DNA of 37,923 nucleotides from Promethearchaeota archaeon. Its GTDB lineage: Archaea > Asgardarchaeota > Lokiarchaeia > Sigyniarchaeales > SOKP01. The stretch covers positions 1 through 37,923 of the forward strand of contig JAEOTH010000141.1 of assembly GCA_016839915.1 (NCBI GenBank), given 5' to 3'. Within the stretch, counting starts at the first letter, position 1; each line of letters starts with the position of its first letter. The notes under the pieces are model-generated. The model did no database searches, was not told the DNA's origin, and saw only the letters and a list, made by a program, of their open reading frames with translations. Shown here in pieces: positions 16,828-21,500 of this stretch. Made by a program: the position numbers and the translations under genes.

Positions 16828-16861
16828 CATTAAAATTTATTTAAAAAAAAGAGTGTGTATA

Positions 16862-18544
16862 ATGAGAGCCATAATAACAGCAAATATTACAGAAGAGTGT
16901 TTGAATGAATTAGAAAAATTGATGGAAATAACATATGAACCATGGAGAGAAACAGGGATAATATATTTTGATGCAAAAGAACTTGTTGAAAAACTTAAGG
17001 ATTATGATATTTTTATAACTGAAGCAGATGATTTAAAAAAAGAAGATCTGTTTGAACGTACTAATCTGAAGCTTATTATATCTTGTAGAGGTGATCCATT
17101 TAATGTTAATTTGAAAGCAGCTACTAAAAATAACATTCCCATTCTTTTTACTCCACTAAGAAACGTAGATGCTGTAGCAGAATTAACAATAGGATTGATG
17201 TTAATGTTAGCTCGAAAATTACAGAAAGTCGATAGGATAATTCACTCAAATGACTTTGAAATAATTGAATTTGAAGATTTTGTTGAGTATTTAAATAAAT
17301 TTCAAGGTGTTGAATTGAAGGGTAAAACAATTGGAATAATAGGTTTGGGGCAAATTGGAAGTAGAGTTGCAAAAAGATTAAAACCGTTTGAAGTTGATTT
17401 TCTGATATATGATCCTTATGTAGACGATGAAATCATCAAGGAATATGGGAAAAAAGCAGATATTGATCATTTAATGAAAAATTCAGATTTTATTACTATA
17501 CACGCAATTGCGACTGATGAAAATTTGAATCTTCTCAATGAAAATAGAATTCAGATGATGAAAGAAACTGCCTATTTAATTAATACATCTAAAGGGAGTA
17601 TTCTTGATTATGAAGCTTTACAAAAAGCGCTAAAAGAAGAAAAAATAGGAGGTGCTGCTCTTGATGTCTTCCCTCTTGAACCTATTGATGAAGATAATGA
17701 ATTCATTGAATTAAAAAATGCAATAATCACACCCCATATTGGAGGGGATACACAAGAAGTAGTTGAAAGACAGTCTGAAATTATATTAAACGATCTTACA
17801 TTATGGCTAAATGGTAAAAATCCTCAATTTATTATGAACCCTGAAGTGCTTAATAAAGTAGAAATAAAGAATTCTCGAATAACTGATAAGATTACTGACC
17901 TAAAAAAAGAAATGGTAGAACTGTGTAAACATTTATTAAAGGAAAAGCATGTGATTGGTTCAGCTGGTAATGTTAGCATTAGAATAAAAAATACTGATAA
18001 TGAATGCGTTTTAATAACACCAAGCAATGTTGCCTATGATGAAATGTCATCTGAAGATATTCTTACAATTGATATGGAAGGAAGAGTTATCGAAGGAAAT
18101 AGGAATCCCTCTGTGGAAAAAAAAATGCACTTGGGGATATATAAAGAAAGGGATGATGTTAACGCAATTATTCATGCTCATAGTATTTATTCTACTGTTC
18201 TTAGCGCATTAAAACTTACTATCCCTCCAATCTTTGAAGAATTTGTTCCATATATAGGCGGTGAAGTTCTATGTGCTGAATATGGAGAATCAGGAAGTGA
18301 AGATTTAGCAGATGGTGTTTTAGCAGCTCTAGAGGAAAGAAATGCTGTTTTGCTGGCAAATCATGGGAACTTATGTTGTGGTAGTCATTTAGATGGTGCT
18401 TATACAGTACTACAATACCTTGAAAGAGGAGCAAAAATATATTACTTAGCTAAACTCATTAAAGATCCAACTTTATTACCAGAGGATACAATCGATTATG
18501 AAATGGATATCTTTGATATTTTTAAAGATTCTAAAAAAATCTAA
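16862..18544 (+). CDS. D-2-hydroxyacid dehydrogenase / class II aldolase fusion protein
   Basis: Two enzymes in one 560-residue chain. Residues 1 to about 325 form a D-isomer-specific 2-hydroxyacid dehydrogenase: NAD-binding GLGQIG at 161-166, an acidic residue in YDPYV, INTSKGSILD, Glu273 in PLEPIDE and catalytic His292 in TPHIGG. The position that is Arg in NTARG of normal enzymes is Lys244 here. After a linker, residues 345-535 form a class II aldolase/adducin domain with SAGNVSIR, ITPS, SVEKKMH, zinc-binding HAHS (His438, His440) and LANHG (His501). The ATG at 16862 gives MRAIITANI. The pair could oxidise or reduce a hydroxyacid and cleave or dehydrate a phosphorylated sugar or sugar acid. 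It converges with the TIM-barrel gene with a gap of three bases. Confidence 0.9.
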   Translation: MRAIITANITEECLNELEKLMEITYEPWRETGIIYFDAKELVEKLKDYDIFITEADDLKKEDLFERTNLKLIISCRGDPFNVNLKAATKNNIPILFTPLRNVDAVAELTIGLMLMLARKLQKVDRIIHSNDFEIIEFEDFVEYLNKFQGVELKGKTIGIIGLGQIGSRVAKRLKPFEVDFLIYDPYVDDEIIKEYGKKADIDHLMKNSDFITIHAIATDENLNLLNENRIQMMKETAYLINTSKGSILDYEALQKALKEEKIGGAALDVFPLEPIDEDNEFIELKNAIITPHIGGDTQEVVERQSEIILNDLTLWLNGKNPQFIMNPEVLNKVEIKNSRITDKITDLKKEMVELCKHLLKEKHVIGSAGNVSIRIKNTDNECVLITPSNVAYDEMSSEDILTIDMEGRVIEGNRNPSVEKKMHLGIYKERDDVNAIIHAHSIYSTVLSALKLTIPPIFEEFVPYIGGEVLCAEYGESGSEDLADGVLAALEERNAVLLANHGNLCCGSHLDGAYTVLQYLERGAKIYYLAKLIKDPTLLPEDTIDYEMDIFDIFKDSKKI

Positions 18545-18547
18545 ATT

Positions 18548-19273
18548 TTATTTATATTTACTATTTAATGAACTTAAGGCAATTTTGGTTGATTCTTCTG
18601 CCTGTTGTTTGGTAACCATTCCAATTGTTACTGCGCAAATATTATGATTAGCAATATATTGAAAAGCAATGTCTGGTTTAATCTCTCCTGCAGCTAAGGT
18701 TTTCATCCCTATAAAATAAAAATCTTTAGTATTATCGACAATTTTTTCTAATTTCTTCGCGTTTCCCATTAAAAAACCATTTGCATTAAAGGGTATTAAA
18801 AACACTTTTACATTTAAAGATTGATCTAAACAATATTGAAATGTTGGAATAGGATTATGAGTAGCAATACCTGGAATAATTCCATAATCCGAAATATCAT
18901 CTAAAAGTCTCAATACATTTGAATCCTTATTATCAGAAACCATTCCGTGAATGAATATTATATTTGCTCCCTTTTCGATTAATATATCTACCTTAGGGTC
19001 TATGCCGGGATATGTAGATCCTGTTATCACATAATCGTTATGTGTCTCACTCATTATTTGAGCAGCTTCCATTATTTTTCCACTAGGGATTACTTCAATT
19101 CCGCGAGCTCCATTAACATAACTTGTTTCTAATATCTCTAACATAGCTTTTGGATTATTTAAAAATTTCCTACGCCATTCAAATGCCTTAAATCCAAATT
19201 GTCCTGCTCCAATAAACGGAGAAGTCCCCGTGGAAACGAGTGGAAAATTGAGATCATCAATTTTACAGAAAAT
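18548..19273 (-). CDS. Unidentified TIM-barrel-like protein, probable AUU start
   Basis: No specific family recognised. Alternating strand-helix units (ARGIEVIPSGKI, DYVITGSTYPG, ANIIFIHGMV, GIIPGIATHNP, VKVFLIPFNANG, FYFIGMKTLAAGEI, ICAVTIGMV) give a beta/alpha-barrel rhythm, resembling aldolase or aldo-keto-reductase type barrels. The first ATG (19144) would remove about 43 residues that look like true protein: STGTSPFIGAGQFGFKAFEW. The frame continues to an ATT at 19273 with GGAAGGGG five bases upstream; a stop lies further up. With that start the product has 241 residues. It is divergent from the DapA-APH fusion and convergent with the dehydrogenase-aldolase fusion, so it is likely part of the same pathway. 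Confidence 0.72.
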   Translation of the reverse strand: MFCKIDDLNFPLVSTGTSPFIGAGQFGFKAFEWRRKFLNNPKAMLEILETSYVNGARGIEVIPSGKIMEAAQIMSETHNDYVITGSTYPGIDPKVDILIEKGANIIFIHGMVSDNKDSNVLRLLDDISDYGIIPGIATHNPIPTFQYCLDQSLNVKVFLIPFNANGFLMGNAKKLEKIVDNTKDFYFIGMKTLAAGEIKPDIAFQYIANHNICAVTIGMVTKQQAEESTKIALSSLNSKYK

Positions 19274-19421
19274 ATTTACCCCTTCCTTTGTTATTATTTT
19301 AAATTTGATAATTGATTATTATTAAGAGAATTATAAAATTTTAATTCAGAGATCATATTAATACATAAAATCAAATAAAAATTCTCAATTTAACTTCTTA
19401 TTTATTGAAGAGGAGATAAGA

Positions 19422-21500
19422 ATATCACTATTTAATGGCATTATTTGTGATGCTTTGACTTTTTATAATCAAGACCTTAAAATCATCAACAATCTTAATT
19501 CACTCCTTATCCGTCATATTCTTACAAATGAAGCAAATTCTCTTCTTCTTTTTGGGAGTATAGGTGATGGAGATCTATATTCTACAACAGCAAAGATAAA
19601 TCTTGTAGAAATGGTATCAGAAATCACAGAAAAGAAAATACCTATCCTTATAGGAATTTATAGTGATCAGGTAGATGACACAATAAATCAGATTGAAAAT
19701 CTAGGTAAGAAATTTGAATATCTTAGTTTTTTGATTTCTCCTCCTCTTTCAGAAAAACAATCTGAAGAGGAATTAAAAAGCTTTTTTGAAAATATTCTGG
19801 GTTCGAACACCATAAAAAATCAAATATATTTGATTAATAATCCTCCTCTATTCGCTGGAAATGAGATTGACTCAAATTTACTAGATTATATACTGCAATT
19901 CTCAAATTTGAAAGGTATAATCGACGCTTTTTATAATATTAAAAATTGTAAATCATATATTCAAAATTTAAGCAGTGATTTTACTATTATTTGTGGGATG
20001 GAGCAAAATTCTCAAACATTTCTCCAACTAATTCCAATAGATATGAGAAAATATAGTGGTATCCTCTCTAGTCTTAGTAATATTAGTAATATGTCTTCAA
20101 AATTATATAATTACGGAATAGAAGACAATATATTAGAACTTCTCCAAATACAAGAACAAATTAATGATATTAGAGACAAAATTTATGAAGTTAAAACCAA
20201 TGATGTAAGGGAGAAAGTAGGTTTAAAATATGCTTTTTTACATTTGTATAGGGATTTGATCTCAAGAACTGACACAGATATTAATTCTATCTACAAGGAA
20301 TTACAAACTCAAATTGACCCGATTAATAGAGAACGAATTGAGGCTACTGTTAATTACATGCAAAATAATAAACAAATTTATAAATTATACTTTCTTGGTA
20401 AAAAAGAGCTTTACCAATTTGATGAAATCATCAATACTTTTTCAAAAATTGATGTTTTAGTTGAACAAGGCAAAGTTAAAAAAATCAAAGGTCCTTATAT
20501 CGACACTAGGAACATACTCTATAGAGTTAATTTTGAAAAGAGTCGATTAGTTTTTAGATTTCGTACAAGTCAGTTTAACTATCTCCAGAATTTAATCAAA
20601 GAAAAACTGCTATATCCATTTTTGGATAATTCTTTGAATCCCAATGATATTGATTTAAGAAATAAAGTAAAGGAGATCATCAATACCAGAACAGGTGAAT
20701 ATATCTTCAATAAAGATAACCCTCCAATAATTCCAGTTTGCAATTTGATTTACTATGATGAAACCAAGGAAGTTATTCCCAATATTTTCTCAGTACAAGA
20801 ATATATTAGAGGAAAACCTTTATTTCAACTCATTAATCAGTATATAAGTGAAGGTAAAAACTTGGCTACTAAAAGATTTCTAAATTTATTTAGTAATTTA
20901 GGTGAACAATTAGGTCATTTACATGAGGTTAAATTTGATTCGTATTACAACAATATTAATGATATTGGTAAAAAAAAGAAAATTTCCTATTCAGAATATT
21001 TCGAAAATGAATTAGAACATAGATTACAAGAAGCAAAAAAAAATAAAATAGATTTTTGCAATGAAATTAGGGATTTTTATCGAGATAATAATTCATTAAT
21101 TGATGATGAAACTGATTACGTTCTTTTGCATAATGACTTTAAAAGTCAAAATATTATAGTTAAAGAAGAATTAGGGATTGTAAAAATTAATGGTATTGTA
21201 AATTTTGATATTTGGTGTGTTGGTAGCAGGGCTCAAGATTTTATCAAGATTGATTATTGGATATTAAAACCTTTGAATAATCCCTCCTTTTATAACGCTT
21301 TTTATAATTCATATTCTAAACATTATAAAGTAAATGTTGATTTTAAGAAAAAAATAGATTTATACAAATTAGTCTGGCTATTAGATGAATACAATTTAGA
21401 ATCTGCTTTAATAAAAAAGTCAGATCAGATGGAAATCATGAAATCTCCACAATTCTCGTTAGAAAACTATTTATTTGAAATCAAAGCAATAATTCGGTAG
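19422..21500 (+). CDS. DapA-fold domain fused to APH-family small-molecule kinase
   Basis: The first 290 or so residues read like the DHDPS/N-acetylneuraminate lyase barrel (FNGIICDALTFYNQD, LLLFGSIGDGDLYS, IPILIGIYS, NNPPLFAGNEI, FTIICGMEQ). The Schiff-base Lys position (GIK in the family) is Ile167 and the Tyr of the YNxP motif is not present, so aldolase chemistry is doubtful. A helical linker follows, then an aminoglycoside phosphotransferase-type kinase (about 340-680) with NILYRVNF and VFRFR in the N-lobe, Brenner motif HNDFKSQN at 570-577, and NFDIW (Asp596) for metal. TTG 19455 would cut the first barrel strand; ATA at 19422 with GAGGAG six bases upstream keeps it. APH members phosphorylate choline, methylthioribose, homoserine and hexosamines; substrate is unknown. 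Confidence 0.8.
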   Translation: MSLFNGIICDALTFYNQDLKIINNLNSLLIRHILTNEANSLLLFGSIGDGDLYSTTAKINLVEMVSEITEKKIPILIGIYSDQVDDTINQIENLGKKFEYLSFLISPPLSEKQSEEELKSFFENILGSNTIKNQIYLINNPPLFAGNEIDSNLLDYILQFSNLKGIIDAFYNIKNCKSYIQNLSSDFTIICGMEQNSQTFLQLIPIDMRKYSGILSSLSNISNMSSKLYNYGIEDNILELLQIQEQINDIRDKIYEVKTNDVREKVGLKYAFLHLYRDLISRTDTDINSIYKELQTQIDPINRERIEATVNYMQNNKQIYKLYFLGKKELYQFDEIINTFSKIDVLVEQGKVKKIKGPYIDTRNILYRVNFEKSRLVFRFRTSQFNYLQNLIKEKLLYPFLDNSLNPNDIDLRNKVKEIINTRTGEYIFNKDNPPIIPVCNLIYYDETKEVIPNIFSVQEYIRGKPLFQLINQYISEGKNLATKRFLNLFSNLGEQLGHLHEVKFDSYYNNINDIGKKKKISYSEYFENELEHRLQEAKKNKIDFCNEIRDFYRDNNSLIDDETDYVLLHNDFKSQNIIVKEELGIVKINGIVNFDIWCVGSRAQDFIKIDYWILKPLNNPSFYNAFYNSYSKHYKVNVDFKKKIDLYKLVWLLDEYNLESALIKKSDQMEIMKSPQFSLENYLFEIKAIIR

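Follow-up and report, generated by a model that had tools for sequence, protein, structure and literature searches.

A DHDPS/NAL-type barrel without its Schiff-base lysine fused to an APH-type kinase domain in Lokiarchaeota

One gene of the window, the 37,923-nucleotide stretch of DNA analysed here, encodes a DHDPS/NAL-family barrel that lacks the Schiff-base lysine and is joined in one reading frame to an APH-type kinase domain. We consider it probable, with a probability of about 0.6, that an aldolase-kinase gene pair became fused, and that the barrel ceased to be an enzyme and is retained as a module of the kinase without a catalytic role of its own. The fusion, the residue losses, the relatives with all checked residues, the shared synteny and the purifying selection were all observed in this study; we infer the direction of that history, the activity of the kinase and a regulatory role of the barrel.

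Architecture of the fusion gene

The fusion gene forms a single uninterrupted frame of 692 residues. Its annotated features, with the basis of each assignment, are the following:

19410..19415, + strand: Shine-Dalgarno-like GAGGAG, 5' of the fusion gene start (read directly)
19422..21500, + strand: fusion gene of 692 codons and a stop, with ATA at 19422 as the inferred start codon (open frame)
19431..20189, + strand: DHDPS/NAL-family TIM barrel, Schiff-base Lys absent (PF00701 match, Foldseek, eight model strands)
19554..19571, + strand: remnant of the GTTGE motif, GSIGDG, residues 45-50 (aligned with GSTGEG of the separate-gene relatives)
19833..19835, + strand: Ile138 in place of the catalytic Tyr, in IYLINNP (motif alignment with relatives)
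19920..19922, + strand: Ile167 in place of the Schiff-base Lys, in GIID, predicted strand beta6 (alignment and model)
20442..21497, + strand: APH-type kinase domain, about residues 341-692 (PF01636, and Foldseek of a relative's separate kinase)
21129..21152, + strand: catalytic loop HNDFKSQN (HxDxxxxN), residues 570-577 (read in the window protein)
21201..21203, + strand: Asn594 at the canonical metal-binding Asp position, in VNFD (motif alignment)

Two Pfam domains were found above their curated cutoffs, DHDPS (PF00701) in the N-terminal half (residues 4-256, E 2.9e-19, 69.3 bits vs a cutoff of 22.1) and APH (PF01636) in the C-terminal half (residues 437-610, E 3.3e-8, 34.0 bits vs a cutoff of 23.2). 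The AlphaFold2 model of the window protein, which was built from a 34-row alignment that included half-length rows, had a mean pLDDT of 89.6 and a pTM of 0.78 and contained eight barrel strands followed by a kinase-like region. All 50 Foldseek matches listed for this model were DHDPS/NAL-family structures (best E 3.8e-14). The profile match, the eight strands and the structural matches thus agree with the first-pass annotation, which had read the N-terminal half as a DapA/NAL barrel.

The gene seems, from its sequence, to start at an ATA codon behind the GAGGAG. In the start column of the 17 orthologues ATG was found nine times, GTG and TTG once each, and ATA or ATT six times; these six are the window copy (19422-19424) and the orthologues in loci L003, L005, L006, L008 and L012. 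The exact GAGGAG was present at the same place in 10 of the 17, including all six with ATA or ATT. No in-frame ATG, GTG or TTG lies upstream of the window gene, and the first downstream one is at codon 12. In genomes G008 and G007 no such codon was found in frame upstream, nor within 60 codons downstream of the start. A filtered start-codon count over 26 loci, some from one genome, gave ATA 8, ATG 3 and ATT 2 together with the control-like codons AAG 2 and TAT 2; it supports the ATA start weakly, since its ATA cases are confined to the fusion gene and one 483-codon frame (in L036, L039 and L083).

Catalytic residues of the barrel and the kinase

The roles of the aldolase and kinase motifs are established in known enzymes, the GTTGE motif of the aldolases having a role in binding. 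In the window protein residues 163-168 read LKGIID and make up predicted strand beta6, with Ile167 on the Schiff-base lysine position at the strand end, which bears out the earlier reading of GII in place of GIK. Profile alignment with the solved aldolases 4uxd and 4xky likewise set the GLND of the family on their GVKD and GFKD. This lysine is replaced in 29 of the 31 fused proteins, by Asn in 15 and by Ile in 14. The catalytic Tyr of YNxP is also lost in the window copy (Ile138), as had been noted, and it is retained by seven of the 29 Lys-less homologues; therefore, its loss is not fixed across the family. The GTTGE motif is absent from the window protein, and both of its Thr columns vary among the 29 Lys-less rows.

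The first-pass annotation had also stated that an alternative conserved lysine at the Schiff-base position would speak against it. As candidates for a substitute we took the columns with Lys in at least 60% of the 29 Lys-less homologues; in the model all of them appear in helices or loops and none at any strand end, and they were rejected by this position only. K227 and K317, the only Lys columns occupied in 29 of 29 rows, are placed by the model one in a helix and one in a loop.

In the kinase half, the HxDxxxxN motif was correctly described as kept (HNDFKSQN, residues 570-577). The statement that the metal Asp is also kept did not hold for the window copy, in which the canonical IDF-type Asp is Asn594 (GIVNFDIW). 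This position is Asp in 14 of the 17 window-genus members, the others being the window Asn and two Gly, and the next Asp, Asp596, is invariant in the 17. Among the 31 fused proteins, the metal Asp is present in 27 (Asn or Gly in G000, G005, G007 and G038), the HxD Asp is present in 27 (Asn in G001, G002, G007 and G015) and Tyr replaces the kinase His in one (G016). Eight of the 31 proteins carry one or more of these H/D changes, and seven of the eight belong to the window genus, 10 of whose 17 members retain all checked kinase residues. The same residues are canonical in all 13 fusions analysed from genera g7 and g8, 12 of which are Lys-less; in these genera the kinase residues have outlived the aldolase lysine. 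It must be noted that the 31-protein table omits G070 (in-frame stop), G018 and G048 (both partial), and that the kinase motif table omits two kinase pieces of G031.

The fold of the kinase was examined in a relative in which it is a separate protein. Its model (pLDDT 88.9) matched APH-fold kinases in Foldseek from E 3.7e-10, the named matches including APH(2'')-IVa and APH(2'')-IIa and, lower down and with low TM-scores, homoserine kinase (2ppq) and N-acetylhexosamine 1-kinase (4wh1-4wh3); identities were 14-16% and TM-scores about 0.45-0.53 by query length. The Fructosamine kinase family (PF03881) scored 20.5 bits in the window protein, below its cutoff of 22.4; in four other fusions it was above the cutoff in two (23.1 and 29.6 bits) and not listed in the remaining two.

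Relatives, genomic setting and selection

A profile search for further DapA-APH fusions, as the first reading had suggested, found them in genera g1 (the window genus), g3, g7 and g8 of family f1, that is, in three genera besides that of the window. Of the 19 genomes of the window genus, 17 carry a full-length orthologue, which is 54-74% identical to the window protein; in one further genome the orthologue is partial and sits at a contig end, and G012 has none. The family profile matched at E 1e-10 or better in 42 of the 83 class genomes, not all of these matches being fusions, and about half of the family genomes had no copy. The kinase profile at E 1e-12 was found in 44 of 227 phylum genomes: 34 belong to the fusion lineage (including two cut by contig ends; in G048 only the kinase part is visible), five carry separate genes and five have weaker kinases (G027, G137, G138, G141 and G144), for which no DHDPS-like ORF was found in the sequence stretches examined, several of which may be too short to include one. 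A GTDB contig scan, covering close relatives only, gave 11 loci, all from Lokiarchaeota or Lokiarchaeia. With regard to an origin outside the phylum, the plasmid protein search gave no close kinase, with three weak haloarchaeal records, and its 432 DHDPS-like records were all below 60% identity.

The two domains exist as separate neighbouring genes on one strand in four genomes of family f4 (G078, G079, G081 and G082). In these four complete pairs the aldolase carries GSTGEG, YNNP and GIKDSS or GFKDSS, and the kinase carries HNDxxxxN and IDFDNW. In addition, G031 (family f3) has an aldolase of the same type followed by a kinase start that is cut by the contig end, and a class II aldolase behind a kinase end. 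The neighbours of the separate genes are otherwise unrelated (thiamine genes, a transglutaminase-like gene), and in G081 and G082 no Pfam match was obtained for the ORF that immediately precedes the separate aldolase. Among the 31 fused proteins, two retain both Lys and Tyr, namely G047, a fusion with both sites intact, and G038, which has Asn at the kinase metal position; both adjoin AMMECR1-PyrC-SRP54, as many Lys-less fusions do. In a tree calculated after removal of the Lys/Tyr-type columns, the Lys or not-Lys state needs two changes, and a single clade of all 29 Lys-less rows was not rejected (AU p 0.43), so that one or two losses of the lysine are possible. We chose to root the tree on the separate-gene forms, for which the tree tool flagged long branches and odd composition; therefore, the direction from separate to fused genes is not proven by the tree.

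The shared setting of the fusion loci is seen in AMMECR1, which lies upstream of the fusion in 18 of 23 loci compared; these 23 include two genomes twice, and several of the loci lacking AMMECR1 are truncated. PyrC and SRP54 lie beyond AMMECR1 where the stretch is long enough, and an FGGY kinase and a dehydrogenase-aldolase gene are sometimes found between this block and the fusion. This dehydrogenase-aldolase neighbour is present in eight of the 19 genus genomes (E 1e-60), vs 18 of 19 for the fusion (one partial); hence, the neighbours do not strictly co-occur with it. Class II aldolases, the FGGY kinase, an inositol-monophosphatase-family gene and a sugar-isomerase-like gene are found near the fusion gene. 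In the window, positions 16853-18544 encode a fusion of a D-2-hydroxyacid dehydrogenase and a class II aldolase domain; 46 of the 83 class genomes contain relatives of its dehydrogenase part at E 1e-60 or better. Next to it, 18548-19279 (- strand) is a divergently oriented ORF of 243 aa for which neither Pfam nor NCBIfam gave a family above cutoff. ORFs of its type are present in 44 of the 83 class genomes; in 10 of the 11 GTDB-scan loci a homologue directly precedes the fusion, the eleventh locus being cut there. Its PDB sequence matches look spurious; most are to repeat proteins and span about 35 residues.

Both halves of the gene are under purifying selection in the 12 close pairs tested, all Lys-less, with dN/dS between 0.127 and 0.389 over the aldolase half and between 0.102 and 0.305 over the kinase half. 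These pairs were drawn from a set of 26 proteins that omits g7_G047, g8_G056, g8_G053, g8_G057 and g3_G038. Whole-gene dN/dS in two pairs was 0.202 and 0.157, the neighbouring genes ranging between 0.115 and 0.549 and between 0.064 and 0.211, respectively. Over 32 hand-chosen columns of the former pocket, mean conservation in g1 was 0.847 vs 0.762 at random (73 of 10,000 draws as high), in g8 a marginal 0.868 vs 0.823 (5.6% of draws as high), and in the separate-gene forms 0.950 vs 0.669, a strong signal. Judged from these alignments, the pocket conservation is compatible with a retained binding pocket, and barrel structure alone could also explain it.

Between loci L036 and L039 (G003 and G006), synonymous divergence is 0.02-0.07 in the four genes upstream, from SRP54 to the 18548-type ORF, and rises to 0.27-0.52 in the five genes that begin with the fusion gene, a step that would fit a recombination breakpoint where that gene starts.

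Origin of the fusion, rival readings and known systems

According to the history that we favour, the ancestor would have been a two-gene unit composed of a class I (Schiff-base) DHDPS/NAL aldolase and, directly behind it, an APH-fold small-molecule kinase. The two genes would have fused in an ancestor within Lokiarchaeota family f1, after which the barrel would have lost its Schiff-base lysine once or twice, leaving the Asn or Ile seen today, and the Tyr as well as the threonines of GTTGE would have become variable. Deprived of Schiff-base chemistry, the barrel may have been kept as a scaffold or oligomeriser or as a regulatory domain that binds a ligand, in which case the former substrate or product may control how active the kinase is; such regulation by the old ligand is plausible in the light of the sequences. 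Given their intact kinase motifs, the g7 and g8 proteins should be active small-molecule kinases. In the window genus the kinase appears to be partly eroding, and the window copy, in which Asn replaces the metal Asp, may have little or no activity; in this genus it is doubtful that the kinase is active, because the window protein is without the metal Asp and seven of 17 members are without the His, the HxD Asp or the metal Asp.

The first-pass annotation had seen in the protein a pseudo-aldolase serving a small-molecule kinase. The Lys-less barrel, the APH fusion and the purifying selection speak for that reading, and its active kinase is less secure here than in g7 and g8. Since separate genes and fusions with catalytic residues exist, a pseudo-aldolase that arose by loss is more likely than a layout built as a sensor. 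We advance only tentatively the more specific proposal that the barrel is a repurposed metabolite sensor allosterically controlling the fused kinase via the old pocket and that in part of the genus the entire protein has turned into a non-catalytic signalling or scaffold protein. If that were true, the relatives would represent successive natural stages, namely a gene pair, a bifunctional fusion, a pseudo-aldolase/kinase and a double pseudoenzyme, and the fused stages would share one syntenic site.

Other readings draw on the same observations. In part of the window genus the protein may be a double pseudoenzyme, acting as a metabolite sensor, a scaffold or a partner protein, a possibility that we regard as real and somewhat unlikely. 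The lysine is absent in 17 of 17 genus members, in which the HxD Asp has become Asn in four, the metal Asp has become Asn or Gly in three and the His has become Tyr in one, with at least one change in seven; the dN/dS well below 1 for both halves in six g1 pairs would suit a kept, non-catalytic protein. However, 10 of the 17 members keep all checked kinase residues, the invariant neighbouring Asp596 might serve the metal, and Asp to Asn is a mild change. A barrel with a different, lysine-independent chemistry, kept or gained in a remodelled pocket (DxFYNI in g1), would account for the invariance of D168, F170, Y171, N172 and I173 at the former KDSSG site of all 17 genus members, as well as for the above-average conservation of the g1 pocket columns. 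The nine g8 proteins carry other replacements at this site (IDSCDN in six, IDSFDN in two and IDDFEN in one), hence there is no single new site common to the genera, and we know of no DHDPS-superfamily enzyme that works without the lysine; we therefore hold such chemistry to be improbable.

Least of all do we expect the gene to be decaying and functionless, its conservation reflecting recent ancestry. The fused copy of G070 (locus L062) has an in-frame TAA in the kinase half, due either to decay or to an assembly error, and the gene is missing from the genus genome G012 and from about half of the family genomes, as decay would predict; but 31 of the 32 near-full-length copies are open throughout, and dN/dS was 0.10-0.39 in 24 half-gene comparisons, which makes this reading highly improbable.

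The profile built from the fused and separate barrels had its best solved matches in 4uxd, the Picrophilus KDG/KDPG aldolase (E 8.6e-31), 3di0, a DHDPS (4.1e-28), and 2v8z, E. coli YagE (1.3e-27). We name no substrate, because a KDG/KDPG aldolase is the best match but a DHDPS the second, and because the scores against NCBIfam aldolase subfamilies fall well short of their cutoffs. One might guess at 2-keto-3-deoxy-gluconate by analogy with the barrel-profile match, or at N-acetylmannosamine by analogy with the N-acetylhexosamine kinase and N-acetylneuraminate lyase matches. A pathway was also sought in the neighbouring genes, from which no substrate could be derived.

Each of the two domains is known, as is the concept of a pseudoenzyme domain in general. 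In searches of open-licence PMC articles, no title or abstract opening dealt with a DHDPS-APH fusion or a Lys-less DHDPS-family pseudoenzyme; as far as could be checked in that material, the DHDPS-APH combination and its graded natural series are new. Pseudoenzyme domains are usually visible only as end points, and here the relatives show steps: separate genes, an intact fusion (G047), Lys-less fusions and copies with an eroding kinase. With such graded relatives it becomes testable whether a dead aldolase barrel turns into a regulator of its former partner. Additionally, the carbon metabolism of Lokiarchaeota is mostly inferred from annotation, and annotating the window gene as DapA or as an aminoglycoside kinase would mislead.

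With DHDPS/NAL aldolases (PF00701) the window protein has in common the barrel fold and the sequence frame; unlike them, it is without the Schiff-base Lys, the Tyr and the GTTGE Thr and has a C-terminal kinase attached. With APH and other small-molecule kinases (PF01636) it shares HxDxxxxN, the fold having been matched in the separate-gene relative; unlike APH kinases, it has Asn for the metal Asp and no aminoglycoside context. Finally, a DHDPS-Fae fusion (PF00701 with PF08714) in the same genus likewise has a second domain fused to a DHDPS-family barrel. In contrast to the window fusion, it keeps the lysine (GIKDSSGDY) and its partner is a formaldehyde-activating enzyme domain. The single copy scanned, in L023 (G000:C77:9115-9678), matched PF00701 at E 7.6e-79 and PF08714 at E 1.2e-55, and the five loci read among the ten of this type (L020-L029) were alike.
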